A DNA stretch of 64,000 bases. Source: Verrucomicrobia bacterium LW23. GTDB taxonomy: Bacteria > Verrucomicrobiota > Verrucomicrobiia > Methylacidiphilales > UBA1321. Within the stretch, counting starts at the first letter, position 1. Each line of letters begins with the position of its first letter. A program made the translations under genes and the position numbers. The stretch covers positions 879,956 to 943,955 of the forward strand of contig QAZA01000045.1 of the NCBI GenBank assembly GCA_003054695.1. Reading direction: 5' to 3'. Shown in pieces: positions 37,306 to 56,272 of this stretch. The notes under the pieces were generated by a model that worked only from the letters and a program-made list of their open reading frames with translations, was not told the DNA's origin and searched no databases.

Positions 37306-38979
37306 TTAAGCTTGTATACCAAATTTTTTGAGCTTAGTATACAGAGTTGGCCGATGGATGCCGAGCAGCGCGGCGGCCTTCTTCTTGTTGCCCTTGCACT
37401 GGGCCAGCGCGGCGATCAGCGCCGCCTTCTCGCGGTCGGCCAGGTTAAAGCCGGCGGCGGGGATGGCTGCCGGCGTCGTCGCGGCGGCTCCTGGTGCCGA
37501 TGGCTGCGGAAGCAAGGGCGAGGCCTGGTCGCTATCGTCTGCCTGCCGCGGTTGCCATGGCGCGGGGACATCGCGCAACGGGGTGCCATAGCCGTGATGC
37601 GGCTGGGGCACTGCCGCGGCGCCGCCGGCTCCGGCGGATGGTGTCTCTCCATGCAGCGTGGCATAGCCGGCAAATCCCTGTGGCACAACGGGGGCCGGTG
37701 GCGGCGGCATGGCGGCGGGGAGGGCGAAACTCCCCGGGGCGCACTGCTGCCTGGCGCGGGCCAGGATTTCCGGCGGCAGATTTTTGGGCATCACCACGCC
37801 ACCTTTCTCCAGCACCACGGCGCGCTCGATCGTATTCTCCAGCTCGCGAACATTTCCCGGCCAATGATAATGCAGCAGCAACTCATAGGTCTCCGGGGCA
37901 ATCGTCAGATTGTCCTTGCCCATCTTTTTGCCAAAGCGGCGCAGAAAGGACTGTGCCAGCTCCGGGATATCCTCCGTGCGCTCGCGCAGCGGGGGCAGGT
38001 GCAGGGTAAAGGTGTTGAGTCGATAATACAAGTCCTCGCGCATCAACCCGTTGCGTATCGCCTCATCCGGCCTGCGGTTGCTGGCGGCGATGAGGCGGAA
38101 GTCGGCCTTCAGCGTCTGCGTGCTGCCCAGCGGGCGAAATTCGCGCTCCTGCAGCACGCGGAGAAAGCGCGTTTGCAGCTCAATCGGCATCTCGGCAATT
38201 TCGTCCAGGAAAAGAGTGCCGCCTCCGGCCGCGCTCAGCATGCCGGGGAAGTCCTGCAGCGCCCCGGTAAACGCGCCCTTTTTGTAGCCAAACAGCTCGC
38301 CCTCAATCATTTGCTGGGGAAAGGCGGCGCAGTTCAGGCGGATCAGCGGCCCGCCGGCGCGCAGGCTCAGCTCGTGCAGGCGGCTGGCAAACACCTCCTT
38401 GCCCACGCCGCTTTCGCCGACGATGAGGACATTCGCGTCGCTCGGCGCAATCTGCTCCACCAGCTCCACCAGCTCCGCCATGCGGGCGCTGCGAAAGACG
38501 GGCTGCGGCCGTGTCTCCGCATGGTTGATCTTGCGTTTAAGGCGGTCCGTCTCCTCGCGCAGCTCGCGCGCCTGCTCGCGCAGCGACGTTTGCTCCAGCG
38601 CCTGGGCGATGAGGTTGAGCAGCTCCTCGGGTGCGTAAGGCTTGCTGATGAAATGGAACGCACCGACTTTGATCGAGGCGATAGCGTTGTTGAGCGAATC
38701 GTGCGCGGTGACGACGATGACCGGCAGCGCCGGGTGCGCGGTGCGGATTTGCCGGAGAAAATCGAGCCCCTCGCCATCGGGCAGCCCAAGGTCCAGCAGC
38801 ACGATTGCAGGGTGTTGATCCGCAATGAGTTGCAGCCCCTGGCGGCCGGTGTAGGCGGCGGCGACGCGGTAGTTGCGGCGCTCCAGGATGGACTGCAGGG
38901 TGGCCTGGATATTGCGTTCGTCGTCGATGACACCGATGAGAGGTTTGTTTGCGGCGGTCACACTTTGTTTGTACGGCAA
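37306..38979 (-). CDS. Sigma-54-dependent response regulator (NtrC family)
   Basis: A 557-residue two-component activator of sigma-54 promoters. The receiver (about 13-130) has the acidic pair Asp19-Asp20, phospho-acceptor Asp63 (LLDLGLPDGEG) and Lys113. The AAA+ domain has Walker A GESGVGKE (188-195), the sigma-54 contact loop GAFTGA (235-240) and Walker B GGTLFLDE (253-260). A Pro/Ala/Gly-rich linker (about 410-515) leads to a Fis-type helix-turn-helix (NKKKAAALLGIHRPTLYTKL). No histidine kinase is next to it. It is divergent from cpaB, so it may control the Tad locus, but no GG-N10-GC sigma-54 site was found in the intervening 465 bases. Confidence 0.93.
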   Translation of the reverse strand: MPYKQSVTAANKPLIGVIDDERNIQATLQSILERRNYRVAAAYTGRQGLQLIADQHPAIVLLDLGLPDGEGLDFLRQIRTAHPALPVIVVTAHDSLNNAIASIKVGAFHFISKPYAPEELLNLIAQALEQTSLREQARELREETDRLKRKINHAETRPQPVFRSARMAELVELVEQIAPSDANVLIVGESGVGKEVFASRLHELSLRAGGPLIRLNCAAFPQQMIEGELFGYKKGAFTGALQDFPGMLSAAGGGTLFLDEIAEMPIELQTRFLRVLQEREFRPLGSTQTLKADFRLIAASNRRPDEAIRNGLMREDLYYRLNTFTLHLPPLRERTEDIPELAQSFLRRFGKKMGKDNLTIAPETYELLLHYHWPGNVRELENTIERAVVLEKGGVVMPKNLPPEILARARQQCAPGSFALPAAMPPPPAPVVPQGFAGYATLHGETPSAGAGGAAAVPQPHHGYGTPLRDVPAPWQPRQADDSDQASPLLPQPSAPGAAATTPAAIPAAGFNLADREKAALIAALAQCKGNKKKAAALLGIHRPTLYTKLKKFGIQA

Positions 38980-39444: not shown

Positions 39445-40407
39445 TTGAAGAAGAAGCCGTTTCCCTTAATGATCCTCGGCGCCGTCCTATTGGGCGTCGT
39501 CGCCGTGTTCCTCATCCTGTCGTACATCAGCAAACTTAACTCCGACAGCCAGGCCAAGCTTGACGCTCTTGAAGCCAAGATGCGTGAGATGGCCGGCCGC
39601 CCGGTGACCGTCGAGGCCCCCAAGGTCGAGGCCGTGAAGGTGAGCACCCGCAAGGTTGCCTACGCCCGCATGAAGATCGCCGCCGGCCAGAAGATCTCCT
39701 CTGAGCTCTACGAGTTCAAGGACACCCCCGATGATCTGATCAACAGCTCCCTCAAGGAGAACGAGATCGAAGGCAAGTTTGCCCGCAAGAACATCGAGAT
39801 GGGTGAGCCGATCACGACCAACAACGCCTCCGACAAGCTCCCGCTGATGTCGATGGTGATCACCCCCGGCTATCGCGCCATGGCGATGCAGGTGTGGAAT
39901 GATCCCGCCGTCAACTCCACCGGCGGCTGGGTCAACGACGGCGACAAGGTCGACCTGATCCTGACCTACGAAGATCCGCCCCAGTCCAAGCAGATGCGCA
40001 CCAAGATCATGCTGCAGAACGTCAAGGTTCTCTTCATGCCCGGCGCGCAGCGCAACGAGGAGAGCCAGGGTGTTTTCTCCGCCGCCGGCGCCCCGCTGAC
40101 GGTGACCTTTGAGGTGACCCCGGAGCAGGCGGAAGTTCTGGCCTCGCTCGAAGGCTTCGGCAAAATGCGCATGATCCTGCGCGGCAACTACGACGACCAC
40201 ATTGGCAAGTACAACGGTGTCTACACCACGGAAGTGATCCAGGACCCGAACCTCCTGCAAAAGGTGGCGACGAAGTCCGAAGGCACGGCCGCTGAGGTTG
40301 CCAAGAAGGTCGAGATTAACAAGGCGATTGCAGTTGAGAAGGAAAAGGCCGAAGCCGCCCGCACCAAGAAGAAGGCGGAAGAAGGTCGCGAAGGTCTCAA
40401 CCAGTAA
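39445..40407 (+). CDS. cpaB: Tad pilus assembly protein CpaB/RcpC
   Basis: Periplasmic, membrane-anchored Tad pilus assembly factor of 320 residues that works with the CpaC secretin. It has one N-terminal membrane helix (about 8-26, LMILGAVLLGVVAVFLILSY). A SAF-like domain (about 60-115, VAYARMKIAAGQKISSELYE) follows, and then the RcpC domain (YRAMAMQVWND, GGWVNDGDKVDLILTYE, FEVTPEQAEVLASLEGFGKM). The C-terminus is a charged Lys/Glu/Ala helix. The start is TTG at 39445, supported by a good AGGAG at 39434-39438, one of the few clear ribosome sites in the window. It opens the Tad locus, downstream of two promoter candidates. Confidence 0.9.
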   Translation: MKKKPFPLMILGAVLLGVVAVFLILSYISKLNSDSQAKLDALEAKMREMAGRPVTVEAPKVEAVKVSTRKVAYARMKIAAGQKISSELYEFKDTPDDLINSSLKENEIEGKFARKNIEMGEPITTNNASDKLPLMSMVITPGYRAMAMQVWNDPAVNSTGGWVNDGDKVDLILTYEDPPQSKQMRTKIMLQNVKVLFMPGAQRNEESQGVFSAAGAPLTVTFEVTPEQAEVLASLEGFGKMRMILRGNYDDHIGKYNGVYTTEVIQDPNLLQKVATKSEGTAAEVAKKVEINKAIAVEKEKAEAARTKKKAEEGREGLNQ

Positions 40408-40866
40408 CCACAGGCGCGGCCCCTGGGCGCCTGCCCGGCAACCCTCCTGAGACGACGATCGCCCGAGACGTAACGCTCCATAACACAAGGCAGGTACGTA
40501 TCGCGCGGACCCTCCGCCGGACAGGCCCCACGCCCCTCCCTGATTACACGACGCCAAGAATCGAAAGCCCAGCGCAGCAGCCTCTCCCCGCGGCCCGGAC
40601 TCTCCCCCCATACTCAAGAGGGGAGAGCCCGGGCTGAGGCAACGCAAGAGGCAGCCCGCACCGCCGAGGTGGTGTGGAAAGCCTGCGCACCCCGGCCCCT
40701 CCCCACACGCATAGGCAAACGCACCGGCAGGGCCGGCCCCCTTTTCCCCAAAAAAACTGACAGTACCACCGTCACGTACACCCCCCGGCAAGGAAGTGTG
40801 ATGTAGCGGCACAGGCAGACAGAGAGAGAGCCAGACCAACAGACCAACCGAGAGAGATACTAAACC
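40408..40866. other. Long spacer between cpaB and cpaC
   Basis: About 460 bases, very long for two genes of one assembly pathway. It has no convincing frame. Its only strong element is the hairpin at 40593-40634. The last 60 bases contain a CAGACAGAGAGAGAGCCAGA-like purine tract before the cpaC start. Confidence 0.45.
40593..40634 (+). promoter_or_regulatory. Strong hairpin between cpaB and cpaC
   Basis: Arms GCCCGGACTCTCCCC (40593-40607) and GGGGAGAGCCCGGGC (40620-40634) form a 15-base stem with one mismatch and a 12-base loop. No T tract follows, so it could act as an mRNA stability or processing hairpin rather than a full terminator. Confidence 0.5.
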
Positions 40867-43461
40867 ATGACCACGATCCTACGAACCACCCTGCGTGGGC
40901 TCGGCCTTTTGGGCGTGCTGCTTCTAGCGGCGCCCGTGGCCTACGCTCAGCCCGCAGGCCCCAAGCCGATAGAACTGGAGGTCTCCCAGAGCGAGATCCT
41001 CCCGGGCAAGCTGGATAACCCCACCGCGGTGCCCAGCATCCTGGAAGCCGTTGAAGCCCCCAAGCAGGTGACTGCGACCGGTGCCTCGGTGGACCAGACC
41101 GAAGTGAAGGCGAAAGAAGTGGGCAAGGCCACGCTGACGCTGACACTGAACGGTGTGCCGGTGGAGTACGCCATTACCGTGGTGCCCGCCGCCCAGCGCA
41201 TCTATATCAACCTGAACGAGTCCACCCGACTCACGTTCAACGATGATATTGACGAAGTCTCCTTCTCCAACACCCGCTTCGTGCGTCAGCGCCAGCCCAA
41301 CAACCGCACGCTGCTGCTGGAGGCGATTGCCGAAGGTAAGGCCGCCGTTACGGTCATCACCAAAAATGGTACGATCTATCAGTACGCCGTCAGCACCTTC
41401 GACAACCGCGGCGCCGACGTTCTGCGCATCCGCAACGAGTTCACCATGAAGGGCTACAAAGGCCTCTCCATCGAGTTCACCCGCGATCAGGCCACCCTGG
41501 CCGGTTTCGTGGCCACTCAGGAAGAGCTGGACGACGCCACCCGCATCGTCAAGAAGTACACCCCCTATGTGGACGTGAAGGTGACCCTGGGCACCCCGGA
41601 AGCGGGCGGCAACGAGTACAGCGAAGACGAAGCGGCCATCATCAACTCGATCCACTCCCTGGCCCGCATCAAGGGCCTCGTGGTTCGCGTCAAGTTCCCC
41701 CGCCCCACCATCACGGAGACCAGCCGTACCACGGTCTCCACGGGTGACGTCATCAACGCCGAGTCGACGACCCGCGCCGATAACGTGACCACCACGACCG
41801 GCCCGAGCTTCGCCGTCCCGGCCGACGGCAACATCCAGGACTACCGCCCCCGCCAGAACGAGACGATCACCCGCAGCGTGAACCGTGTGCGCACGACTCC
41901 GGAGAAGATCTTTTTGTACGGCGAGCTGGAGGACGACCTGGAAGAAGCCCGCGCGCTGCGCGTGGCCCGCACCTACAGCCCCCTGGTAGTCTCCTTCATG
42001 ACGGTCAAGGACCCGATCCAGCTGCGCCTCAAGATCCGCTTCGTGCAGATCAACAAGGGCAAGCTTAAGGACACGGGCATCCTCTGGACCGACAGCGCGG
42101 GTGGCGACCAGCCCTCCATCGGTGCCGGCGTGCAGTTTAACAGCCAGCAGGCCTATGTGCGCGATCGCGGCGACTCTGTGAACACCCCCTACAGCCCCTT
42201 CCCCGCGTTTGATAACGCCGCTTCCCAGGTTGTCAACAAGGCCTCCTCCGCCTTTGAGAGCCTGCTGTACAACCTGCAAATTGACGCGGTGGCCCAGCTG
42301 CGCCTGATTGACCAGAACAACTACGGCCGCGTGATCCAGGAAGCCAACGTCAACCTGACCAACGGCCAGGTCGGCTACTTCTTCGCCGGTTCACAGGTGC
42401 CTTATGTCTCCGGTCAGGCCATCGCAACCTCGGGCGCCACTATCTCGGAAGTCAGCTTCCTGAGCGTGGGCGTCGGCATCTACATCATCCCGCTAAACTA
42501 CGAGCGCGGCAGCCAGGAGAACGGCACCACCCTGTCGATCCTTACCCAGGACGACCAGGAGCGTGTCCCGACCCTCGGCAAGGTGATGGGCGCCAACATG
42601 ATCCGCCCGCTCATCCAGGGCAGCGAAGTTCCGATTCTTGACGAATCCATGAAGTTTGTGGACGAGAACGGCCTGATCGGCCTGAACGTCGAGGCGAACG
42701 TCAGCACGCTCGACAGCTTCCTGTCTGTCGCCCCCGGCATCAGCGCCCCTCAGACGACCACCTCCCTGGTCGGCACCCGCAGCCACCTGCGCGACGGCCA
42801 GTCCGTAGTGCTCGGCGGCATCCTCAGCGACACGTTTACCAAGAACGTCCGCGGCATCCCCTGGCTGCGCAACGTCCCCTTGTTCTCCTGGCTCTTTGAG
42901 AATCCCCGCGCGCAGCGCACCCAGTCCGAGACGGTGGCGGTCTTCACCCCGGAGATCATCCGTATGCGTGACATGGATACCAAGCGCAACCCCCGCCCGG
43001 AGATGCCCGAGACAGAAGACGTGCTGCGTGAGCGTGGCGATGTGCCTGTCCTCAAGGCCATCCCCTATAAGCCCACCACGGTGGAGATGCGCCCTGTGAG
43101 CGACGTCAAGGCCATCAACCAGACCCCCGTCACGGTGAAGGACCGCCCGGCCCCCAGCAGCGACCTGCCCGAAACCGGCAACGGCCGCGCCATCGCCAGC
43201 CGCTCCGCCTCCAAGCCCGCCCCGGCCACCACCACCCCCGTGGCAGCGGCCCCCAAGAAGAAGCAGCAGACGGTCGAAGCGCCCGCGCGCCCCAAGCCTC
43301 TGCCGCCCGTTGAGGACAATGCGGCCCCCCAGATGGAGGACCGCCCCGCCGGCTCCCCGACGATCAACACCGAGTACGGTCCCGCGGCCAGCGCGCCCAA
43401 GGCCCGCCCCTCGTCCACTCAGGCTTCCCTCTCGGCCAACGCGCCTGAGACGATCCCCTGA
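40867..43461 (+). CDS. cpaC: Tad pilus outer-membrane secretin CpaC/RcpA
   Basis: Outer-membrane secretin channel of 864 residues for the Tad pilus. A signal peptide ends near residue 27 (LGLLGVLLLAAPVAYAQ). The pilus-assembly N-terminal domain (about 35-165) has RIYINLNESTRLTF. A BON-like or N1 region (about 170-270) follows, and then the secretin core (about 440-710: QVGYFFAGSQVPYVSGQAI, VGVGIYIIPLNYERGSQENG, RSHLRDGQSVVLGGIL, RGIPWLRNVPLFSWLF). Residues 730-864 form a Pro/Ala/Lys-rich tail. Family members are usually about 450-600 residues, so this one is enlarged by an insertion around residues 270-340 and by the tail. It is the second gene of the rightward Tad series. Confidence 0.93.
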   Translation: MTTILRTTLRGLGLLGVLLLAAPVAYAQPAGPKPIELEVSQSEILPGKLDNPTAVPSILEAVEAPKQVTATGASVDQTEVKAKEVGKATLTLTLNGVPVEYAITVVPAAQRIYINLNESTRLTFNDDIDEVSFSNTRFVRQRQPNNRTLLLEAIAEGKAAVTVITKNGTIYQYAVSTFDNRGADVLRIRNEFTMKGYKGLSIEFTRDQATLAGFVATQEELDDATRIVKKYTPYVDVKVTLGTPEAGGNEYSEDEAAIINSIHSLARIKGLVVRVKFPRPTITETSRTTVSTGDVINAESTTRADNVTTTTGPSFAVPADGNIQDYRPRQNETITRSVNRVRTTPEKIFLYGELEDDLEEARALRVARTYSPLVVSFMTVKDPIQLRLKIRFVQINKGKLKDTGILWTDSAGGDQPSIGAGVQFNSQQAYVRDRGDSVNTPYSPFPAFDNAASQVVNKASSAFESLLYNLQIDAVAQLRLIDQNNYGRVIQEANVNLTNGQVGYFFAGSQVPYVSGQAIATSGATISEVSFLSVGVGIYIIPLNYERGSQENGTTLSILTQDDQERVPTLGKVMGANMIRPLIQGSEVPILDESMKFVDENGLIGLNVEANVSTLDSFLSVAPGISAPQTTTSLVGTRSHLRDGQSVVLGGILSDTFTKNVRGIPWLRNVPLFSWLFENPRAQRTQSETVAVFTPEIIRMRDMDTKRNPRPEMPETEDVLRERGDVPVLKAIPYKPTTVEMRPVSDVKAINQTPVTVKDRPAPSSDLPETGNGRAIASRSASKPAPATTTPVAAAPKKKQQTVEAPARPKPLPPVEDNAAPQMEDRPAGSPTINTEYGPAASAPKARPSSTQASLSANAPETIP

Positions 43462-44070
43462 GACGTCGCGCGAGGCGGCGACACCAAGGCGCCCCCGACC
43501 GGGCGGCGCGCGAGCGGACGCGGATGATCCGTCCCCCTTACCAGGGCCCGCCATCCGCACCGCCCGCCGCCCCCCGGCGCCGCCTCGGTCCACCCGCCCT
43601 CCCCGCGACAGTCCCCCGGCAGTAACCTGACGTCGTAACCCGTGTCCCCGCATTCTGGTGCGAGGACCCACCGCCTGGCCGGTCTCAACCCGATAGCTGC
43701 TTCCTTGCCCGCGAGTATCTCTCCCCCGGTCGCCCGACACCCTCGGGCGACCCCCTGGGGGGAGGGGCTCGCCGGCGGTCGGGACAGCACTTTCGTTGTC
43801 TTCCGCCCCACCTGTCAGCGACAGCACGTACAGTGCCCGCCTCCAGCCGCACAATTAAGTGGCATAAAGCGTGGTTGTAAGTAATATCATTTTAGAGTTA
43901 TCCGTTCCCATCCATCCCGATACCCCTCGCGAGCAGGTGACCTGTTCGTAACTCAACTCATCAAGCGGAGCATTGACACCATACCAACTAAAGCACGATA
44001 CTGGCGCCCTGCCGTTTGTTCATACCCTTTGTTCCCCTAAACTTTTTCCCCCGCCGCACAAGCCCACGCA
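43462..44070. other. 609-base spacer between cpaC and cpaE
   Basis: The first 400 bases are very GC-rich, the last 200 near even. A perfect 9-bp hairpin, GTCGCCCGA-caccc-TCGGGCGAC, lies at 43729-43751, without a T tail. No pilin-like frame (Gly/Glu-Tyr motif plus membrane helix) was seen on reading the three forward frames, so the missing Flp pilin is not hidden here. Confidence 0.5.
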
Positions 44071-45294
44071 ATGATTGATGTATTTCTCGTTCACGACGAC
44101 CCCGAAAGAGCGTCGGTGATCAAATCCGCCATCAATGCCAACCCCGAGCTAAGCCTCGCCTCTGAGGCCACTACGGGGAAGAAGGGCCTCTATGATCTGC
44201 AAACGATCCACAAGGGCCACCCCCGCATGTGTATCGTGCGCCTTAACCTGGGCGACATCGACGGCTTCTCGTTCATCGACCAGGTGCGCCAGAAGGTGAA
44301 AGGCAAAGTCACCCTCGTCCCCGCTCTGGAGGGCACCGAGGCCGGCAATGTCTACCGCCGCCTGATGCAGATGGAACTGCTGGACACCCTTGAGGGCTCC
44401 ATGCCCGCGCACGAGGTGGCCAAGGTGCTCGATGCCGTCTCGAAAAAATGCGAGGCGGACGTTATCGAGACCGTCTACGGGGACTGCTTTACCGTCAGTG
44501 TCATGTCGGGCCGCAGCGGCGTCGGCAAGTCGGTCATTGCCACCAACCTGGCCGTTAACATTGCTCAGCGCGCCGCGCTGGCCGGTGGCGCGCCGGAGAG
44601 CGTGGCGCTGATGGACTTCTCCCTGAATGTGGGGGACTTTGCGGCCTTTCTCGACGACGTACCCCGCCGGCACATTATGGACGCCGTTGCGGAGGCCGCC
44701 ACGCTCGACTCCGAGATGATGCAGAACTTTTTGCCCACCCACCCGCGCCTCGGCTTCCGCTACCTCGCCCACCCCAACACGGATATGGACGTGACCGCGT
44801 TTGACTACAACGTGGCGCTGGCGATGCTGAACGCGATGAAAAGCGTGACGGGCTACATGGTGATCGACACCGGCGTATGGGCCAACGGCCCCTGCCTGGC
44901 CGCCGCCAGCATGAGCGACGTCATCCTGCTCGTCACCACCCGCGACATCCCCCGGCTTATGGCCACTGCCAACGCCATCCGGTACCTTAAGGACTGGGTG
45001 GAGATCAACAAGATCAAGGTGCTCGTCAACGAGAGCGAGATTGGCGCCGAGGACATGCCCGACGCGAACGTGGAGGAATGGCTGGAGCACTCCGTAACCG
45101 CCTACATCCCCAGCAACCCCGCGCACGTCATGCTCAGCGTTAACTCCGCCACGCCCATTACCATAATGGAGCCTAACATCCCCGTCTCCGTTGTGCTGAG
45201 CAAGCTGGGAGAGCACATTTTCAACAAATTTAAGGAACCGCCGAGCGCGCCGCCTGCACGCCCCTCGCAGCCGCGCGGCTTTCTCGGCCGGTAG
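44071..45294 (+). CDS. cpaE: Tad pilus localisation ATPase CpaE/TadZ
   Basis: MinD/ParA-type protein of 407 residues that places the Tad machine at the pole. Residues 1-130 form an atypical receiver domain: the acidic pair HDDPE is present, but the phospho-acceptor position reads Asn (VRLNLGDIDG), so phosphorylation is unlikely. Residues about 140-390 form the ATPase, with P-loop GRSGVGKS; the signature Lys of the deviant Walker A (KGGVGKT) is Arg here. VALMDFSLNVGDFAAFLDD follows. The C-terminus ends in a Pro-rich tail. Loss of the receiver Asp is usual in TadZ; the altered Walker A is less so. It lies in the Tad series before cpaF, with no Shine-Dalgarno sequence. Confidence 0.9.
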   Translation: MIDVFLVHDDPERASVIKSAINANPELSLASEATTGKKGLYDLQTIHKGHPRMCIVRLNLGDIDGFSFIDQVRQKVKGKVTLVPALEGTEAGNVYRRLMQMELLDTLEGSMPAHEVAKVLDAVSKKCEADVIETVYGDCFTVSVMSGRSGVGKSVIATNLAVNIAQRAALAGGAPESVALMDFSLNVGDFAAFLDDVPRRHIMDAVAEAATLDSEMMQNFLPTHPRLGFRYLAHPNTDMDVTAFDYNVALAMLNAMKSVTGYMVIDTGVWANGPCLAAASMSDVILLVTTRDIPRLMATANAIRYLKDWVEINKIKVLVNESEIGAEDMPDANVEEWLEHSVTAYIPSNPAHVMLSVNSATPITIMEPNIPVSVVLSKLGEHIFNKFKEPPSAPPARPSQPRGFLGR

Positions 45295-45816
45295 AAACTA
45301 CCGCCGCAACCGCTACCCCATGGTGTGTGAAGGAGCACGCTGCCGGGGCCTGATCAGGATCGTCCGGATCGACAACACTGATTGCTGGAAAGAGAGAGAA
45401 GAAAGATTGCCAGGGACCGCATGGTGCGACGACGCGTTTGCACCCATTTGTGCGCGTTAATGCGTAAAAAATGGCTCAGATTCTGCTGTGGCAGAACATC
45501 CGATACAAAATACAACCCATCGCGCGTCTTGATCTCCGGAGCGGAAACGTGTAGGCTTGCACTCGCAGGCAAGCCCGTTTCCCCCCCGCCCGCATGTTGC
45601 GCCTTGTGCCTGGAAACGGGCCAGAGTGTAAGATGCAGGATGTCAGGATGTCGACATGCCCCGGCCCTTTTCTGACAACCCCCGCCGGATTCTCACCCCG
45701 GCTCCAGAAAAAATCAGCAGTGCAGCCCAGGCGGCCCGTGCGCCCATGCTGTAAACAGGCACCGACACAGCTCCCTCCAACTCCCCGCGTAACCCTTCGC
45801 CCCCCACCACGACACC
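45295..45816. other. 522-base spacer between cpaE and cpaF
   Basis: It contains GGCTTGC-actcgcag-GCAAGCC (45554-45575), a 7-bp stem followed by cgtttcccc, a weak terminator or processing hairpin. The first part holds a gagagagaagaaagattg purine stretch near 45390. No convincing pilin or other gene was found in the three forward frames. Confidence 0.45.
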
Positions 45817-47412
45817 ATGGCCAACATCCCGGTTCCCCCCAATTTTGCGCGTCCGCCCGGAGGCATCCCTCCGCGGCCCCCTGGCATTGGCGCGCCGGGC
45901 GTACCCCCGCGCCCTCCCGGGGCGGGTGCGCCTCCGCCTCCGCGTCCCGGTGGGGCGCCGCTGCCGGGTTCGGTTACGGTGCCGCCGCGCCCTCCCGGTG
46001 CCGGCCCTTCGTCGCTGACTCAGGGCATGAAGTCCGTGGCGGCCTCTATTCCGCCCGCCCCTGGCGCCCACGCGGCGCCTCCCCCCGCGGCCAAGGCCGC
46101 CCCGCAGCAAACGGATGCGGCGCAGGAGTTTATCACCACCTTCAAGCGCGCGCTGCTGCCCTTCCTGATTACCCAGCTGGACCAAAAGCTGCTGGAGCGC
46201 GGTAATGAAAACGCCCTCAAGGCGCGCATCGAGCAGCTCGTGGACGAAAAGCTCAACGCCGACAAGGCCTCCATCGGCCGCCAGCTGCGCGTGCGTCTGC
46301 TGGACGAAGTCATCAACGAGATGGTGGGCTTCGGCCCCCTTGAGCACTGCCTGCGCGACGACACCATCTCGGAAATCATGGTCAACGGCCATGACACCAT
46401 TTACATCGAGCAAAAGGGTAAGGTAACGCTCAGCCCCATCAAGTTTGTGGACGTGGAGAGCTGCCGCCGCGTTATTGACAAGATTCTCTCCCCGCTCGGC
46501 CGCCGCGTCGACGAATCGAGCCCGCTGGCGGACGGTCGTCTGCCCGACGGCTCGCGCGTGAACGTCATTATTCCTCCGCTGTGCCTGAACGGCCCCTGCC
46601 TCACCATCCGTAAGTTCTCCAAAAACAAGCTCAGTATCGAGAAGCTCATCGGCTTCAAGGCGCTTAGCGAGTCGATGGCGATGTTCCTGAAAGGCGCCGT
46701 GCACGTTACGGCCAACATCGTGATCTCCGGCGGTACGGGCTCCGGCAAAACCACGATGCTGAACGCGCTCTCGTCGTTCATCGGCGAAGGCGAGCGCATT
46801 GTGACGATTGAGGACGCCGCCGAGCTGAGCCTGATGCAGGAGCACGTGGTGCGCCTGGAATCGAAGCCGAAGAACATCGAAGGCAAAGGCGAAATTTCCA
46901 TCCGCGAGCTGGTCAAAAACTCCCTGCGTATGCGCCCGGACCGTATCGTTATCGGCGAGTGCCGCGGCGGTGAGGCGCTGGACATGATCCAGGCCATGAA
47001 CACCGGCCACGACGGATCGATGACCACCACGCACGCCAACGATCCCCGCGCCGCGATTTCCCGTCTGGAGACGCTCGTCATGATGGCGGGCATGGACATG
47101 CCGCAGGAGGCCATCCGCAAACAGATTGCGGGCGCCGTGCATATCATGCTGCAGATCAGCCGCCTGCACGACGGCAGCCGTAAATGCACTTATATTACGG
47201 AGATCCAGGGCATGGAAGGCGCCATGGTCACCCTCCAGGACATTTTCAAGTACGAGCAGACCGGCGTTAACCCCGATGGCAAACTCATCGGCGTTACACG
47301 CGGCCTTGGCATCATCCCCAAGATCCACGCCAAATTCAAAAGCATGGAGCTGAACATCCCCGTCGAAATTTACCAGAGCGTGCTGCACCACAACAACCCG
47401 CAATACCCCTAG
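45817..47412 (+). CDS. cpaF: Tad pilus secretion ATPase CpaF/TadA
   Basis: Hexameric secretion ATPase of 531 residues that drives Tad pilus assembly. Residues 1-95 are a striking Pro/Gly/Ala-rich tract (repeats such as RPPGIGAPGVPPRPPGAG), absent in typical CpaF. The conserved N-terminal part runs from about 105. The ATPase has IVISGGTGSGKTTMLNALSS with Walker A at 305-312, the Asp box IVTIEDAAEL, Walker B-type RPDRIVIGECRGGEALDM and the His box TGHDGSMTTTHANDPRAAI. The start follows a poorly defined ribosome site. It is fourth in the Tad series, directly before tadB and tadC, as expected. Confidence 0.95.
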   Translation: MANIPVPPNFARPPGGIPPRPPGIGAPGVPPRPPGAGAPPPPRPGGAPLPGSVTVPPRPPGAGPSSLTQGMKSVAASIPPAPGAHAAPPPAAKAAPQQTDAAQEFITTFKRALLPFLITQLDQKLLERGNENALKARIEQLVDEKLNADKASIGRQLRVRLLDEVINEMVGFGPLEHCLRDDTISEIMVNGHDTIYIEQKGKVTLSPIKFVDVESCRRVIDKILSPLGRRVDESSPLADGRLPDGSRVNVIIPPLCLNGPCLTIRKFSKNKLSIEKLIGFKALSESMAMFLKGAVHVTANIVISGGTGSGKTTMLNALSSFIGEGERIVTIEDAAELSLMQEHVVRLESKPKNIEGKGEISIRELVKNSLRMRPDRIVIGECRGGEALDMIQAMNTGHDGSMTTTHANDPRAAISRLETLVMMAGMDMPQEAIRKQIAGAVHIMLQISRLHDGSRKCTYITEIQGMEGAMVTLQDIFKYEQTGVNPDGKLIGVTRGLGIIPKIHAKFKSMELNIPVEIYQSVLHHNNPQYP

Positions 47413-47668
47413 GCCTCGGCCGCCCCGCTCGTGCCCGCCGCCCGCTCCCCTGCGGGCCGGCAGGTGCGTGGGAGACGGGCAGGCGCTCGCCAGGCGCCGC
47501 AAAGGCAAAGGGCTGGTCGATTTCGCAGGAAACTCCGCTTCGCTTCACCTCCCCCCCGCTGACTTTCCCCCCACTTACCAACCCTAACCTTTTGCGGTAC
47601 CCGGCCGGCAGCCCGGGCCGTAAGCCGTTCGCAGCACCGCCGCCACAAAAGTCAACCCCCACGCACCT

Positions 47669-48676
47669 ATGGATCCAATCATCTATCTCTTTATAGCCTG
47701 CACCTTTGGAGCACTGATCCTGGCCGGTGCTGCCATGGCTTCGGCCATGTCGGGGCCGTCGCTGGACGTTACCAAGCGCCTGGAGACCCTCAACCCCAAG
47801 GCCGCCGCGGAAGTAAAGCAAGCCCAGCTGGAGGTGACCAGGAAGCCGGGCGTCGACTATAAGAAAGTCTTCAGCCAGTTTACCGGCCAGGCTTACATGG
47901 AGAAGCTGGAGAAGGACCTGGTGCAGTGCGACATCCGCATGAAGGTCGGCGAGTTTCTCCTGATGCGCGTGGGCCTTATTGTAGGCGCCTTTATCGCCGT
48001 GCAGGTGTGGAAGGGCAACCTCGTCTACTCGCTCATCGCGGCCGGTGTCGCAGCCATCATCCACATCCCTGTTCTCGCCATCAAGCGCTCCATGCGCGTG
48101 GCCAAGTTCGTCAGCCAGCTGGCGGAGTTCCTGGTGCTGATTACCAACTCCCTGCGCGCCGGTCAGACGTTCCTCCAGGGCATCGACATCGCCTCCCGCG
48201 AATCACCGGACCCGATCGGCATGGAGTTCCGCCAGCTGCTAAAGGAGACCAACCTGGGCGTGCCCGTGGAAGAAGCCTTTGCCCGCATGCTGGTACGTGT
48301 GCCGTCCGAAGATCTCAAGATCGTCATGAGCGCCTTCAGCATCCAGCGCAACGTCGGCGGTAACCTGGCCGACATTATGGCGAAGGTCGCTTTCATGATC
48401 CGCCAGCGTATTCAAATCGCCGGCCAGATCGCGGTGCTGACCACACAGGGCAAACTCTCCGGCGCCATCGTCGGCATGCTGCCCGTCGGCCTCGGCACCA
48501 TCGTTGCGCTGATTAATTACCGCTACATGTCCCTGCTTTGGGATCTCGATCACCCCGAGTTTGTGGAAAACAACATGGGCAAGAACATCTACGGCCCGAT
48601 CCTCATCGGCATCGCGGTGTTTATGCAGCTCCTGGGCTGCTTCGTGATCTACAAGATTTGCGACATCGAAGTCTAG
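47669..48676 (+). CDS. tadB: Tad inner-membrane platform protein TadB
   Basis: Polytopic membrane platform protein of 335 residues with the type II secretion F domain. Membrane helices lie at about 4-22 (IYLFIACTFGALILAGAAM), 102-120 (VGLIVGAFIAVQVW), 122-140, and two near the C-terminus (LSGAIVGMLPVGLGTIVALI, GPILIGIAVFMQLLGCFVIY). The F domain core (about 155-285) has QLAEFLVLITNSLRAGQTFLQ and FSIQRNVGGNLADIMAKVAF. With TadC it forms the platform engaged by CpaF. It starts 257 bases after cpaF and is followed by tadC 195 bases on. Confidence 0.92.
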   Translation: MDPIIYLFIACTFGALILAGAAMASAMSGPSLDVTKRLETLNPKAAAEVKQAQLEVTRKPGVDYKKVFSQFTGQAYMEKLEKDLVQCDIRMKVGEFLLMRVGLIVGAFIAVQVWKGNLVYSLIAAGVAAIIHIPVLAIKRSMRVAKFVSQLAEFLVLITNSLRAGQTFLQGIDIASRESPDPIGMEFRQLLKETNLGVPVEEAFARMLVRVPSEDLKIVMSAFSIQRNVGGNLADIMAKVAFMIRQRIQIAGQIAVLTTQGKLSGAIVGMLPVGLGTIVALINYRYMSLLWDLDHPEFVENNMGKNIYGPILIGIAVFMQLLGCFVIYKICDIEV

Positions 48677-48871
48677 TCCCCACCCGCTCGCCATGCCCGG
48701 TGTCGCCCCGCGCTACACCGGACGCGGCGCGAAGGCGGCCAGGCTCTGCTGCGCAAGACACCTTCCCTTCGCTTCCAACCCCCCACTCCCTCCCAAGCCC
48801 CCAACACGACCGGTTAGCCCGTGGGTCAAACCCCCTCGGCGCCACCCGGTCACAACCGCGAGAACACCCCC

Positions 48872-49867
48872 ATGTTGCTATTCCTGGGCATCGCCCTGAT
48901 CTTCGCCGCTCTCCTGCTGGGCGCATTTGCATTTGCGCCGCAACAGCGGGACCTGAGCGGTCGTATCCGCGTCCTGCAAAACCCGGGCAATGCTACCAAG
49001 CAGGGCCTGCGCGATGCGGACGAAATGAACAAAAGCTTCGTCGTTCGCGTCGTACTCCCCTTCGCCGAGAAGATAGCCAAGTACGTCCCGACGCCCGACG
49101 CCTCCATCGCCGCCGCGCAGAAGGAAATTGTGGGCGCGGGCCTTGCCGGCAAGGTTGCCCCCACTCAAATCATCGCCCTGCAGTACATGCTGATGATCGG
49201 CCTGCCGATGATCGTCATCCTCGTCTCCCTGGGCACCAACGGCATGATGAAGTGGGGCGGCGTGGGCCTGTGCGCCATGCTCGGCTACCGCCTGCCCATC
49301 GGCATCGTGGCCGGCCGCGCCAACAAGCGCCGGCACGAGATTCAGAAAGCCCTCCCCTTCACGCTCGATCTGATCTCGATCTCCGTGGAAGCCGGCGTCG
49401 CCATGGACGGCGCGCTGCGCATCGTGGCCGAAAAGACGTCCGGCCCGCTGACGGACGAAATTGTGCTGACGCTGCGCGAAATTCAGCTGGGCAAAGGCCG
49501 CGAAGAAGCGCTGACCGACCTGGCCAACCGCACCAATGTGGACGATCTCAAATCGTTCATCACCGCCATTAACTATATCGGACGACTCGGCGGCTCGCTG
49601 GTCGACGTTATCCGCATTCAGGCGGAGGCCATGCGCATCAAGCGCAAACAGCGCGCGGAAGAAAAGGCGATGAAGACGCCGGTCAAGATCATGATCCCGC
49701 TGGTGCTCTTCATCTTCCCGTCGATGTTTATCGTCATCCTGGGGCCTGCGGGCATCCAGCTGTATGTCAAGATTTCGAACACCGCGGAACTCGGCGGCGG
49801 CGGCAAGTCCAAGACGACCGGGGAGAACATCCCCAAGAGCCGCACCGACGCTGCGACCACGCAGTAA
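48872..49867 (+). CDS. tadC: Tad inner-membrane platform protein TadC
   Basis: Partner platform protein of TadB, 331 residues, again with a type II secretion F domain. Helices lie at about 1-20 (MLLFLGIALIFAALLLGAFA), 98-117 (MLMIGLPMIVILVSLG), 122-140 and 277-298 (IMIPLVLFIFPSMFIVILGP). The core (about 155-270) reads LPFTLDLISISVEAGVAMDGAL and LKSFITAINYIGRLGGSLVDV, followed by QRAEEKAMKTPVKIMIPL, the usual TadC end. The start at 48872 (MLLFLGIAL) opens the first helix; a start at 48821 would add 17 polar residues. A Lys/Thr-rich tail ends the protein. Confidence 0.92.
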   Translation: MLLFLGIALIFAALLLGAFAFAPQQRDLSGRIRVLQNPGNATKQGLRDADEMNKSFVVRVVLPFAEKIAKYVPTPDASIAAAQKEIVGAGLAGKVAPTQIIALQYMLMIGLPMIVILVSLGTNGMMKWGGVGLCAMLGYRLPIGIVAGRANKRRHEIQKALPFTLDLISISVEAGVAMDGALRIVAEKTSGPLTDEIVLTLREIQLGKGREEALTDLANRTNVDDLKSFITAINYIGRLGGSLVDVIRIQAEAMRIKRKQRAEEKAMKTPVKIMIPLVLFIFPSMFIVILGPAGIQLYVKISNTAELGGGGKSKTTGENIPKSRTDAATTQ

Positions 49868-49996
49868 CGGCGACACTCAACACGACGCGCCGGCCGGCCC
49901 CACGGCCCGCCTGGCGCGTCCACCGGCAACATGGGAGAAACGGCGCTCGCGGCAAAACAACCTGCGGGCGCCGTTTGTTGTACAGGCCGGCGGTTA

Positions 49997-50048
49997 GGGG
50001 GACGGGACCGGACGGGGCGGGGCGGCAAGGGCGGCCGGGCAGGGGGGG
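49997..50048 (+). other. Potential G-quadruplex tract
   Basis: Runs GGGGG (49997-50001), GGG (50004-50006), GGGG (50014-50017) and GGGG (50019-50022) are separated by 2, 7 and 1 bases, fitting the G3+N1-7 rule. More G runs continue to 50048, ending with seven Gs. In this GC-rich genome chance occurrence is possible. Confidence 0.4.
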
Positions 50049-50062
50049 CGGAACGTTCCGCC
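50047..50062. promoter_or_regulatory. Perfect 16-base palindrome upstream of tadE
   Basis: GGCGGAACGTTCCGCC reads the same on both strands, with no loop. Its length and its location about 160 bases before the tadE promoter candidate suit a dimeric regulator site. The regulator is unknown. Confidence 0.4.
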
Positions 50063-50219
50063 GTGTCGGCCGGTGTCAGGCTTTACATGCGGGTGTCGGG
50101 ATTAGAATCAGGCTGTTATTTTTGTGTTGAGTGTTTGCGTAAAATATTCTCTAAATGACAGCCATCTAGCGCTTTTCAACCTGAACGAATCCGGGTTTTG
50201 TTGCCCGGCTCTGCTGATT

Positions 50220-50248
50220 TTGCAGGCCGGCGCAATATCTGGTATAGA
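50220..50248 (+). promoter_or_regulatory. Candidate sigma-70 promoter for tadE-tadE-tadG
   Basis: TTGCAG (50220-50225), a 17-base spacer, then TATAGA (50243-50248). The expected start near 50255 gives a leader of about 15 bases before the tadE ATG at 50270. Confidence 0.55.
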
Positions 50249-50269
50249 AATTGCATTGGAAACACTACT

Positions 50270-50881
50270 ATGAGCACGTCTGGACCGAAACGTCGGAAAA
50301 AGAGTCTTGCGCAAACCACGGTGGAGTTTGCGCTGATTGCTCCCTGCTTTTTTGCGATTCTCTTCGCAACGCTCGATTATGCTCAGATCTTTTTCTACGA
50401 GCACTCGCTCCGCTACGCCATTTACATGTCCGGCCGTTTTGCGATGACCCGCAAGCCGATGATGGTTTACAGCAACGGCGTAGCGACAACCAACCCTGTC
50501 AAGTTCGGGACGAATGTCATTTCTCACTACAAAAGCATCCGCTGGGTGTATCAAAGCAACTGCGTGATGTTTGTGCCCGAGCCGTCCATCCGCTGCGGCT
50601 GGTATTACTCTACGGACCCGACCAACGTGATTACGATGGACATGCGTCGCGACGTGACCAAGTTGCCGTCCAGCCGATGGGGTCCGGGCGACAAAGAAAC
50701 GTTCCTGCGCATTCAGGTGGCCTACAAGATTTCTCTCATCACTCCCGCCGGCAGCCTTCTCGGCATGGGCTTTACGGACGATAACAACATTTTGACGCTC
50801 TCCTCCGCCACAACGGTGCGTCTGGAGGCCGCAGACGCCGCGTTTGGCATGGTGCCCAGCAATCCGGAGGACCTACCCTAA
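50270..50881 (+). CDS. tadE: TadE-like minor pseudopilin (first copy)
   Basis: Tad minor pilin of 203 residues. A basic N-terminus (SGPKRRKKSL) precedes the motif LAQTTVEFALIAPCFFAILF, the TadE pattern with Glu at +5 of the predicted cleavage point and a membrane helix behind it. The residue before the cleavage point is Ala, where characterised TadE and Flp proteins have Gly. The rest is an exported beta-rich domain without cysteine pairs. The stop overlaps the next ATG by one base (taATG), so the two tadE genes are translationally coupled. A promoter candidate sits just upstream. Confidence 0.82.
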   Translation: MSTSGPKRRKKSLAQTTVEFALIAPCFFAILFATLDYAQIFFYEHSLRYAIYMSGRFAMTRKPMMVYSNGVATTNPVKFGTNVISHYKSIRWVYQSNCVMFVPEPSIRCGWYYSTDPTNVITMDMRRDVTKLPSSRWGPGDKETFLRIQVAYKISLITPAGSLLGMGFTDDNNILTLSSATTVRLEAADAAFGMVPSNPEDLP

Positions 50882-51528
50882 TGAAAAACTACTTCTACTA
50901 CCTGCGCCGTGCACGTAAGGCCAACAAAAGCCAGTCGCTGGTAGAGTTTGCGATGATTTTGCCGGTCTACCTGTCGCTGATGTGCGGCGTGTTTGATTAC
51001 GGCTGGTTTATCGGCAACAAGACGCTGCTGACAATGAGCGTGGCCACCGCCGTGCAGGTGGGCGCCCGCTCGGAGGACGCCATGGCCACCACCATGACGA
51101 ACATGTACGAGATCATGATTACAGCGCCGTGGCCGCGGCTTAAGATGAACACGGCCTCCGGCGCCGGCGTCATTACCTTCCTCATTCGCCCCACCGCCGG
51201 CAGCAACTTTTTGCGCACAAATGGCGACCCGGAGGCCGCTGTGGGAAGCTTTGGCGGCTTTAAGGGTAGTCCAGACGAAACGAAGAACGCGAGCCGTTTG
51301 CTGTACGCGGGTGCCGGCACCAATGCGTTTAACTGGCAAAATCCGCCGCGCAAGATTCCCGGCGTCGACGCTCTTGATCTGGTGGATGGCAAAGTATACG
51401 TCCACGTGGAAGCTTGGTATGACGCCGAGCTTGTCACCCCCTTCCAGACAGCGATCTCCTGGAGTTTCCCCGACGGTATTTACGACAGTTACCTGCAGTT
51501 TTCCCTACAGAATCCCGATATTCTCTAA
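50881..51528 (+). CDS. tadE: TadE-like minor pseudopilin (second copy)
   Basis: Second TadE-type protein, 215 residues. The N-terminal basic stretch (RRARKANKS) is followed by SQSLVEFAMILPVYLSLMCG, with the +5 Glu and membrane helix of the TadE family; the residue before the presumed cleavage is Ser rather than Gly. The exported part has TMSVATAVQVGARSEDAM and a C-terminal ISWSFPDGIYDSYLQFSL. It overlaps the first tadE gene by one base and precedes the tadG-like gene by 79 bases. The two copies share only the N-terminal pattern, so they are probably distinct minor pilins acting as a pair. Confidence 0.82.
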   Translation: MKNYFYYLRRARKANKSQSLVEFAMILPVYLSLMCGVFDYGWFIGNKTLLTMSVATAVQVGARSEDAMATTMTNMYEIMITAPWPRLKMNTASGAGVITFLIRPTAGSNFLRTNGDPEAAVGSFGGFKGSPDETKNASRLLYAGAGTNAFNWQNPPRKIPGVDALDLVDGKVYVHVEAWYDAELVTPFQTAISWSFPDGIYDSYLQFSLQNPDIL

Positions 51529-51607
51529 CCCAATGGCGCTCACTTCCTTCTAGTCCGCCCCCCGGGCCCAAGAATCCACGGGGGAGCAAAACCGAGGACC
51601 ACTTTGT

Positions 51608-54301
51608 ATGAACAAGTCACACCCACGTCACGCCCGCAAGGCGCAAACCTTCATCTTCTTCCTGATCTCCTTCGGAGCCCTTTGGCTCGTCTGCGGTCTG
51701 GGCCTCGATGCTGGTATGCTCTATCTCCATCGCATTAAACTCGGTCGCGCGGTGGACGCGGCCATCCTGCAGGGTGTGGCCCTGTACAAGTTGCCCAAGG
51801 AGCAGGTGGCCGTTGCCATGAAGCACATGGCTGAAGCCAGCTACTCCGAGCTGGCGGCCGCCAACATGCCCGATACGTACACATCCTCGACATACGTGGA
51901 CCCGGCAACGGGTAACACGGAGTACACGTTTACGTTTAGCGCGCCCAACGGCACCCAGTTCAAGGCAACGCTGGCCATCGGCTCCAGCGGCCAGATTACG
52001 ATGTCCCGCGCCTCCGCCATCTCCCCGGCGCGCACGTTCTTTATGGGCTACTCGGAGTTGAATAACGCCAAGATTTATGATGTGGCCGCCACCGGTGAGG
52101 CTGTCCGCCGCCCCCGCATGATCGCGATGGTGCTGGACCGCTCCGGCTCCATGCTGGGCAACAAGGGCTACTCCGCCCTGCCGCCCGCCGTGACGAACTT
52201 CCTGAGCCTGTTCGACACCAATGGTGACAACATCGCCATCATCTCCTACTCCGCCTTTGCCCGCGTGGAGGTGCCGCTGACCAACAAGTTTAACCTGCTG
52301 GGCACCAACAACCAGCTCTACGCCAACCGCTACCCTCAGCAGCTGGATAACCCCATGGGCATGAAGTTCGGCGGCGTTACCGCCTCTGATGAAGGCATGC
52401 GCCTGGCCATCGAGACGATGATGGACAGCCCCGGCTGGAGCAATGCCCAGACGCTGCGCTTCCTGGTCTTCTTTACGGACGGCCAGTTCAACTCCGCCCG
52501 CTCGTTGTTTATGGCCCCGACCATCACCAACACGCTGATCCTGCCCGTGTATGCCGGCATAAGGGCCTCCAACGCGGGCACCAACGTGCTGACCAGGACG
52601 CTGGACGATGCGCTCGTGTCTGGCGTGAGGGTCCCTGTTCCCCTCACCTCCAACATCATTCGCTGGCCGAACCTGACCCGTATGTGGCACCGCGTTGCCA
52701 CGCCTACCCAGGAAGGTGCGCCGACCAACTTCATCCAGCTGGCCACCAATCCGTTCAACCCCAACCCGGTGGGCTACACCAACAATTCGTTCGGCATCCC
52801 CTTCCCCAACAACAAGAATCAGACGAACATGTGGCAGACAAACGTCAACGTCTGGCTGCCGCCCGGTTCGGTCAACTACCTGTTCGAGCAGGCCTATCCC
52901 AGCAACCCGATCGTCACCATCAGCTACGAGACGAACCGCCTCATCAGCTTCACGATGAAGCCTGGTGACAGCAATATGCTGGTGTTGCCCGGCTACATCG
53001 TGGATGGTGTTGCCTCCGGTTACTACCCGTACAACTCCGACGGCGGCATGCAGTACTCCGGCAACGATATCAACTGGAACAAGACGGCCAAGGCCGACGG
53101 CTGGCTGACCTGGCAGACCAACAACGTTGAGGATGACGTGTATAATGCCGAGTTTGGCAACTGGCCCGACGTCTCCGTGCCCAATAACGGCTCGCACGAC
53201 TACAAGAATCAGCGCGACTCCGGCCTCCGCTGGCTGACGATGCGCAACGCGGTCAACCTGTGGTCCGATCCCGCCATCATGATTCCGGAGGATTACTCCA
53301 CCAACTCGGCCGGTAATCCGGTCGACCCCGTCCGCGGCCGCCCTATCAATCCTGTTAACACCTTCTACCCCGGTGGCAACTGGTACTGGCCGGTCGACGG
53401 CTTTGCCCTCCAGAACCGCCGTGTGGATAACAGCCCTGGCGAGAGCGCCAACTGGCCGCCAAACTGGGCCTCCAACGCCTACGTGCTGTACAGCTTTAAC
53501 AGCAACCCGTTTGTCACTCCGCTGACGATTGTCAACGGCCCGACGTACGTCCGCAACACCCGCCATGCGCGCAGCTCCACCAATATGCACCTGGTCAAGG
53601 ATATCGGCGACGGCGATCTGTGGCTCAACACGAACATCCAGAAGGTGACGAACGCTGCGGTCTACTGGTCTGGAGGCCTGCCCCAATGGGCCAAGGATAC
53701 CCTGGCGAATGTGATGACGCCGGACGGCGGCGCCTGGAGAAGCAAGTTCCGCGGCACCAAGTGGACGAACTTCAACGCATTGGGCCAGCCTACCCTTGGT
53801 GGCGCGCTATACACCAACTTCACCGGCGGTATGATGGTGTATCGCGAAAGTAATGTCATCTACACCAACATTAACGTGATGAGCTGGAACGGCCGCCCGA
53901 CCCACTACTTCCACACCTCGCAACAGCGGTGGATTGCAATGACGTCCGAGTACCAAAACTCCGGCAACATCACCACCATGGGTAACTCCAAGACGAAGAA
54001 CTACTGCGCGTTTATCCGTCGCCAGCCCAACAACGTCACCATCTACACGGTGGGCATGGGTTCCGCCGACTTTAACCAGCTTATCCCAATGTCGAACGAC
54101 AATCCGGCAGAGTTCGATCCCTCGATGGGCTACATCAACGCTTCCACGCCTGCGGTAGCCGTCCCCGGCGGTTACACTCAGGTGACGACGGAGAAGCAGG
54201 GCAAGGTGTACCGCGCCCTCCCCACGGGCTCCGCCCCCACCAACCTCAGCGCCATCTTCACCAAGATCGCCAACAAGATCCTGTCCATCGTTACCGAGTA
54301 A
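51608..54301 (+). CDS. tadG: Large TadG-like protein with VWA domain
   Basis: Tad-associated surface protein of 897 residues. The N-terminus (KAQTFIFFLISFGALWLVCG, then LGLDAGMLYLHRIKLGRAVDAAI) matches TadG/TadE-like pilus proteins with a single membrane helix. A VWA domain begins about residue 175 (RMIAMVLDRSGSMLGNKGYS), with the metal-site residues D-x-S-x-S intact. About residues 320-830 form a long Asn/Thr/Tyr/Trp-rich insertion with no recognised fold before a final VWA-like strand (NVTIYTVGMGSADFNQL) near 805-830. Typical TadG is about 400-600 residues. It is last in the Tad series and ends at a strong terminator. An adhesive tip role is plausible but inferred. Confidence 0.85.
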   Translation: MNKSHPRHARKAQTFIFFLISFGALWLVCGLGLDAGMLYLHRIKLGRAVDAAILQGVALYKLPKEQVAVAMKHMAEASYSELAAANMPDTYTSSTYVDPATGNTEYTFTFSAPNGTQFKATLAIGSSGQITMSRASAISPARTFFMGYSELNNAKIYDVAATGEAVRRPRMIAMVLDRSGSMLGNKGYSALPPAVTNFLSLFDTNGDNIAIISYSAFARVEVPLTNKFNLLGTNNQLYANRYPQQLDNPMGMKFGGVTASDEGMRLAIETMMDSPGWSNAQTLRFLVFFTDGQFNSARSLFMAPTITNTLILPVYAGIRASNAGTNVLTRTLDDALVSGVRVPVPLTSNIIRWPNLTRMWHRVATPTQEGAPTNFIQLATNPFNPNPVGYTNNSFGIPFPNNKNQTNMWQTNVNVWLPPGSVNYLFEQAYPSNPIVTISYETNRLISFTMKPGDSNMLVLPGYIVDGVASGYYPYNSDGGMQYSGNDINWNKTAKADGWLTWQTNNVEDDVYNAEFGNWPDVSVPNNGSHDYKNQRDSGLRWLTMRNAVNLWSDPAIMIPEDYSTNSAGNPVDPVRGRPINPVNTFYPGGNWYWPVDGFALQNRRVDNSPGESANWPPNWASNAYVLYSFNSNPFVTPLTIVNGPTYVRNTRHARSSTNMHLVKDIGDGDLWLNTNIQKVTNAAVYWSGGLPQWAKDTLANVMTPDGGAWRSKFRGTKWTNFNALGQPTLGGALYTNFTGGMMVYRESNVIYTNINVMSWNGRPTHYFHTSQQRWIAMTSEYQNSGNITTMGNSKTKNYCAFIRRQPNNVTIYTVGMGSADFNQLIPMSNDNPAEFDPSMGYINASTPAVAVPGGYTQVTTEKQGKVYRALPTGSAPTNLSAIFTKIANKILSIVTE

Positions 54302-54386: not shown

Positions 54387-54541
54387 GCGACACCCCAGCG
54401 CCGCCCAGTGCTGCCGCGCGCAACAGTGTCGCTGCACAGTGCGGCAATGTGCAGCAGCATCATGACAACCGTGCAAACTCAGCCGTTTTGCCCGGTTTTC
54501 TAGTCGCCAACCGCGGGGGTAACGTGCCAAGCTGCGGGCGT

Positions 54542-55954: not shown

Positions 55955-56272
55955 CCAACGCGGGGCGTTGGATCCCTGTTGCTTACGGCCCGTGTGGGGG
56001 GCCGTCGCGGGGAGGATGCGGGCCCTTGCCTCCTGAGCGCCGAAGCTCGCGATTCAAATATTCGAGGGGGGGAGTGCAAATTGCTCTTGAGAAACGCGCC
56101 TTCAACCCGATAATGAGAAGCACGCAGCGAACGCGATGTGCCGCAACGACTACCGCACCGGGGCCCGGTTGAGCCGACCCGGGGGCCGGACCGGGCCGTC
56201 GCGTTTTCCGCACCTTCACCAGAGGCGCCACGGGGGGCGCCGGCCGCACCAACCTGGAGACGGGGAGGGGAC
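55955..56272. other. Spacer before the PATAN gene
   Basis: About 318 bases, with a GC-rich end. gcccgtgtggggggccg near 55988 is a small imperfect hairpin. The stretch aattgctcttgagaaacg (56078-56100) is the least GC-rich part and may hold a promoter. A long in-frame extension of the next gene reaches 56138 but is Arg/Pro-rich and not called. Confidence 0.4.

Follow-up and report, generated by a model that had tools for sequence, protein, structure and literature searches.

The canonical Tad (type IVc pilus) system is composed of a motor ATPase, a pair of platform proteins, a secretin, RcpC, TadZ and the proteins TadE and TadG (PMC6668835). Such systems are described as almost exclusively encoded at a single locus, scattered systems being very rare; the first Tad model already allowed tadV to be located apart and to be replaceable by pilD, and prepilin peptidases are said to have been exchanged between systems (PMC6668835). 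Here, we describe a Tad operon found at positions 39445-54301 of a 64-kb stretch of DNA (the window, i.e., C45:879956-943955, where C45 is contig QAZA01000045.1) from the 6.6 Mb draft genome of Verrucomicrobia bacterium LW23 (56 contigs, 95.4% complete). The operon harbors the components listed above, TadZ as a likely candidate, but, in contrast to the canonical arrangement, all pilin genes and the peptidase gene of LW23 are unlinked to it.

Elements of this arrangement have been described in other bacteria (these comparisons, like the one above, draw on parts of the cited articles). In Bdellovibrio bacteriovorus several, differently regulated flp genes are found, the extra ones off-locus, and TadV is missing at the Tad locus and, according to the article, could not be found elsewhere in the genome either; flp1 and flp2 stay in the Tad operon, whereas in LW23 all six flp genes are off-locus (PMC5430801). 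The Kil system of Myxococcus xanthus is a Tad-type machine with minor-pilin tip complexes, the major pilin of which, KilP, was found by a genome search; KilP is probably matured by another peptidase, perhaps PilD, and PilD has been proposed as a general peptidase (PMC12075869). This system utilizes one major pilin, four tip sets and a prepilin peptidase, KilA, for some of the tips (PMC12075869), while LW23 combines six flp genes with a single TadE/TadE/TadG set and lacks a dedicated peptidase. An orphan flp gene apart from the Tad cluster is also found for the type IVc pili of Sinorhizobium meliloti, but there the clusters have their own pilA and cpaA, and two pilin genes of Agrobacterium fabrum can reportedly substitute for each other in function (PMC10934763). 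Both the off-locus placement of flp genes and the lack of TadV have precedents; what is new is an arrangement that is order-wide, has all flp genes off-locus and involves multiple pilins. No paper on flp-less Tad loci in Verrucomicrobiota was found in the literature searched, i.e., titles and abstract openings, with most subscription journals outside its coverage.

The nine genes of the operon, all on the + strand and placed as in an earlier, sequence-only reading of the window, follow the order cpaB-cpaC-cpaE-cpaF-tadB-tadC-tadE-tadE-tadG (E-values of domain matches in parentheses). The RcpC/CpaB protein (39445..40407; PF16976, 4.8e-20; SAF domain PF08666, 2.6e-8) is followed by the RcpA/CpaC secretin (40867..43461; PF00263, 3.3e-24), CpaE/TadZ (44071..45294), the CpaF/TadA motor ATPase (45817..47412; PF00437, T2SSE, 1.8e-60), the platform proteins TadB (47669..48676; PF00482, T2SSF, 2.9e-14) and TadC (48821..49867; PF00482, 1.1e-21), the pseudopilins TadE1 (50270..50881; PF07811, 4.3e-9; cleavage motif AQTTVEF) and TadE2 (50881..51528; PF07811, 1.1e-7), and an 897-residue TadG-like protein with a pilin-type N-terminal helix and a VWA domain (51608..54301; PF00092, 2.6e-9; PF13400). 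Pfam cut-offs are passed by RcpC, SAF, Secretin, T2SSE, T2SSF (twice), TadE (twice) and VWA. For CpaE/TadZ, a receiver domain plus a MinD-like P-loop domain, the scores are below cut-off (CbiA, PF01656, 25.0 vs 25.4 bits; Response_reg, PF00072, 22.5 vs 30.2 bits), and the protein is tentatively identified by these matches together with its place in the operon, which is kept in family loci, and an identity of 47-55% to the gene at the same position in eight of these loci. The Tad domain of TadG (PF13400) scored 22.2 bits against a cut-off of 22.3 in one search and 26.5 bits, above cut-off, in the genome-wide search. The tadC frame opens with GTG, but translation more likely starts at the in-frame ATG near 48872.

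The sequence-only reading noted that neither a flp pilin nor a cpaA/tadV peptidase gene is seen at this locus, which is borne out by closer analysis. No match to the Flp hidden Markov model (HMM) and no match to the A24 prepilin-peptidase domain PF01478 is found anywhere in the window. In a six-frame scan for a cleavage motif followed by a hydrophobic helix, which recovers six of six known Flp proteins (TadE2 misses its filter), the window yields only TadE1 and one frame at 26504, antisense to a 571-residue open reading frame (ORF), and the 20 kb and 17 kb on its two sides yield nothing. The same reading saw no tadD, in agreement with the lack of any TadD/CpaO tetratricopeptide-repeat or RcpB domain among the ten proteins scanned; the genome-wide searches did not include TadD. 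The absence of a pilin gene at the locus is real and has in the main an ordinary explanation, and the arrangement is uncommon yet consistent across the order.

Six Flp matches over the Pfam cut-off are found in the genome, none of them on contig C45: one at C18:17919 (−), three in tandem at C21:5511, 5973 and 6548 (+), one at C21:117568 (−) and one at C50:371588 (−). Over a 29-residue core, i.e., the cleavage site and the helix, five of the proteins are 97-100% identical, while their DNA is 78-92% identical, with nonsynonymous distances (dN) of 0-0.016 and synonymous distances (dS) of 0.37-2.37 over the 29 codons (one of ten pairs was uncomputable). Because dN is near zero while dS is high, selection holds the protein constant. 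All six genes carry a Shine-Dalgarno match of 9-11 nt; in 34 long ORFs of the window, each scored at its best start, the match is 3-7 nt long (the ORFs were selected mechanically, and some may be spurious). Translation signals this strong are consistent with a subunit produced in large amounts, and flp genes that lack a strong Shine-Dalgarno site may encode minor pilins. Judged by constraint on five copies and by Shine-Dalgarno strength in six, the genes look real. Neither sigma-54 sites in front of any of the six flp genes or of the Tad operon nor an excess of exact dyads common to their upstream regions over shuffled sequences was seen (eight shuffles, a crude test).

The surroundings of these genes vary. 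At C18:14048-18047 (L009), downstream of the flp gene and with the same orientation, lies a gene for a 1212-residue Verru_Chthon cassette protein A (TIGR02600, 2.2e-201; by its name, a family that marks Verrucomicrobiota) with a GspK-like N-terminus, a pairing seen in no relative flp neighborhood examined. The C50 gene, the most divergent copy, is transcribed divergently from a gene for a PilT/PilU-family ATPase (TIGR01420), with an unassigned 177-residue frame between them (C50:371588-373468; L015). When the neighbors of the LW23 flp genes were sought beside the flp genes of relatives, only three weak matches and no syntenic flp site were found, in short flanks and uncontrolled for an overall decay of synteny. 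In eight of eight relatives of genus g2 (L119, L126, L045, L135, L127, L121, L142 and L125) a flp gene is followed by a second, divergent flp gene having a Shine-Dalgarno match of just 3-4 nt, which possibly encodes an adapter or a minor pilin. Contigs of G002, G004 and G003 (L115, L116, L117 and L126) end inside, or within about 50 bases of, a flp gene; short-read assemblies are thus probably interrupted by near-identical flp copies, and the numbers of flp genes counted are lower bounds.

The only A24 peptidase over cut-off in the genome is a 301-residue protein of the PilD type (PF06750 and PF01478; C45:67842-68747), whose gene shares the contig of the Tad locus, at a distance of about 850 kb, and is paired with no flp gene; a dedicated TadV/CpaA is found nowhere in the genome. 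A second PF01478 match, at C45:602171, was rejected as a peptidase (14.8 bits, below cut-off, in a 371-residue frame); we take this frame, upstream of what appears to be a dxr-like gene, to be CdsA-like. The sequence-only reading had suggested a genome-wide search for Flp and a prepilin peptidase, naming a co-regulated flp-cpaA pair as the finding that would speak against it. Both kinds of gene were recovered, but no such pair: each flp gene is an orphan, and none of the six shares a contig with the peptidase gene. The part of that reading in which the major pilin and the peptidase are encoded elsewhere is supported. Genome-wide, one RcpC, two TadE and one TadG Tad domain score over cut-off, and because all of them are in the window, its operon is the sole Tad-type machine found for the six pilins. 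An orphan CpaF-like ATPase is encoded at C45:479379-481271 (−; L033). It is 42% identical to the CpaF of the operon over 488 columns and keeps Walker A and the Walker B glutamate (GECRG), while TTTHAN reads ITALNA, i.e., the histidine of the His box is lost; in a search of 20 genomes at E 1e-20, a second CpaF was found in none of the 19 others.

The distribution of these genes among relatives supports a link between Flp and the Tad machine. Among 78 genomes Flp is found in 26 and RcpC in 24, with both in 23, Flp only in three, RcpC only in one and neither in 51 (Fisher p 1.7e-15, uncorrected for kinship). Two of the Flp-only genomes, G003 and G017, do have CpaF, and none was found in that search in the third, G010 (66% complete); in G072, which scored for RcpC only, tblastn reveals a flp gene beside cpaB that was missed by the HMM. 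An A24 peptidase is found in 58 of the 78 genomes, including many RcpC-less genomes of the order, a wider distribution than that of RcpC, as expected for a shared enzyme. The 17 RcpC-positive genomes of the order harbor exactly one A24 peptidase in 14 cases, one and a sub-cut-off fragment in G009, and none in G011 (65% complete) and G026 (87% complete).

The separation of flp from the Tad locus is a property of the order rather than of LW23. None of the order's 17 RcpC loci lies on the same contig as a Flp match, even though each has at least 3.3 kb of contig upstream of the RcpC domain. Elsewhere in the class, 11 of 21 RcpC matches have flp at a distance of 0.45-1.85 kb (G064, G071, G072 by tblastn only, G075, G080, G081, G084, G087, G088, G091 and G099); related loci of the class bear flp beside cpaB together with the core genes of the window locus. 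A further eight have no flp within 2 kb (G062, G077, with a weak flp match at 4.2 kb, G078, G126 and the second loci of G064, G071, G080 and G087); of the other two, G066 is cut by a contig end just upstream and the partial match G099:C25 was left out. A tree of CpaF (29 rows, midpoint root; the wrongly framed rows G080a and G087a, the 57-residue fragment of G066 and the orphan CpaF of LW23 left out, as were G001, G013, G021, G026 and G084, which have no CpaF in the stretch read) places 13 loci of the order in one clade (support 100/99) as sister to the flp-bearing pair G075 and G091 (support for the combined group 99/95). The remaining six flp-bearing loci fall outside this group, and flp-less loci of the second type make up a clade of their own. 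The flp-less loci of the order thus constitute one clade nested among flp-bearing loci, and the simplest reading is that flp was lost from the locus once, in the ancestor of the order, while the second type became flp-less separately. For G013, G021 and G026 (L100, L102 and L104) cpaB, cpaC and cpaE are found together, with cpaF, tadB and tadC not in the stretch read; cpaF of G013 sits on another contig (C23), and the Tad locus may be split in their family.

We consider it very probable that the window harbors a Tad pilus assembly operon from which the major-pilin genes have moved away, such that the subunits come from orphan flp genes and are processed by PilD. The locus would supply the secretin, the alignment protein, the localizing protein, the motor and two platform proteins as well as a single tip set composed of TadE1, TadE2 and the VWA-containing TadG, while the filament subunit would be provided by the six flp genes, orphans that occupy four sites elsewhere in the genome. 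The general PilD-type peptidase would cleave the Flp prepilins, and probably also TadE and TadG, in place of TadV/CpaA. The TadG-like protein is, given its N-terminal helix and VWA domain, probably a pilus tip protein or adhesin. A structure model of this protein is poor overall (mean predicted local distance difference test score, pLDDT, 42; fair confidence only for about the first 178 residues) and displays a helix at residues 6-58 followed by strands; its matches in the PDB are weak, none reaching E 0.001, with chains of complement factor B/C2 and von Willebrand A1 among the top ones, as a VWA domain would lead one to expect.

Several observations weigh against this explanation. From the LW23 genome alone, a gap in the draft assembly could hide another flp or cpaA gene. 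In the C50 protein, which is 72% identical to the other five over the core, the Gly that is usual before the cleavage site is replaced by Ala, and this protein may be something other than a major pilin. Among 11 other family members a Shine-Dalgarno match of at least 9 nt is found in just 23 of 48 flp frames (three others are cut off upstream; four non-Flp tblastn matches were dropped before counting), and therefore not every flp gene bears the mark of bulk production. The sigma-54 and dyad searches revealed no motif common to the flp promoters and the Tad promoter. The action of PilD on Flp is proposed by analogy, and the explanation as a whole is drawn from genome sequences.

The sequence-only reading had also offered that the machine exports something other than a Flp pilus, for example the TadG-like protein itself, which would be exported or displayed with TadE1 and TadE2 forming a short pseudopilus. 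A locus without flp or tadV and the size and VWA domain of TadG fit such a secretion system, but the genome holds six flp genes for which no other RcpC, TadE or TadG is found, Flp and RcpC strongly co-occur, related loci in the class with the same core genes bear flp beside cpaB, and TadG looks tip-like; this alternative is not supported and we regard it as highly improbable. The converse, a relic Tad locus and flp genes that serve another machine (type II secretion or a type IVa pilus), draws on the two flp genes that adjoin genes of other pilin-like systems, at C50 and C18. We find it extremely improbable because the Tad genes are full-length frames, CpaF of the operon retains its Walker and His-box motifs, the gene order is kept in relatives and Flp tracks RcpC rather than the more widespread A24 peptidase.

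The six flp genes could also be a mixture, some encoding major pilins and others, i.e., the C50 copy and the second tandem members in relatives, minor or adapter pilins similar to KilK and KilO of Myxococcus, where Flp-type adapter pilins have been described (PMC12075869). The sequence and setting of the C50 gene as well as the weak ribosome-binding sites of the second genes in genus g2 point in this direction, whereas the Shine-Dalgarno match of the C50 gene (11 nt) is as strong as those of the others. This scenario is compatible with off-locus pilins serving the Tad operon, and we consider it quite possible, with a chance somewhat short of even.

We tentatively propose a more specific form of the Tad-operon explanation, which is possible but on balance doubtful, in which one Tad machine with one tip set utilizes a wardrobe of separately placed, separately promoted and interchangeable major pilins, an arrangement that would have arisen once, when flp left the locus in the ancestor of this verrucomicrobial order. 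This would be the reverse of the Myxococcus Kil system, with its one pilin and four tips, and the composition of the filament would then be set by which flp promoter fires and not by the Tad operon. The flp-less clade next to flp-bearing sister loci offers a clean evolutionary case for studying the possible use of several major pilins by one Tad machine and the possible replacement of TadV by PilD. Had only the locus been searched for flp, the machine would have been classed as defective or as a non-pilus system; the genome-wide view shows that an order can have its pilin and peptidase genes unlinked at every RcpC locus examined.

Downstream of tadG, the window encodes a 501-residue protein (54449-55954) with no Pfam or NCBIfam match and a receiver-domain protein (56138-57475) with a sub-cut-off DUF4388 match; neither has a counterpart in the Tad stretches of relatives as fetched. 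On the other side, divergent from the operon, lies a gene for an NtrC-type sigma-54 response regulator (37306..38979, −; PF00158, 2.3e-63; PF00072; PF02954). A homologue was absent from the 2.6-3 kb cpaB flank fetched from other family loci, and a 42% partial match was found in G075. In G002 and G004, a 76% homologue is found on the cpaB side of the Tad locus, and the protein is a possible candidate regulator of the Tad operon.

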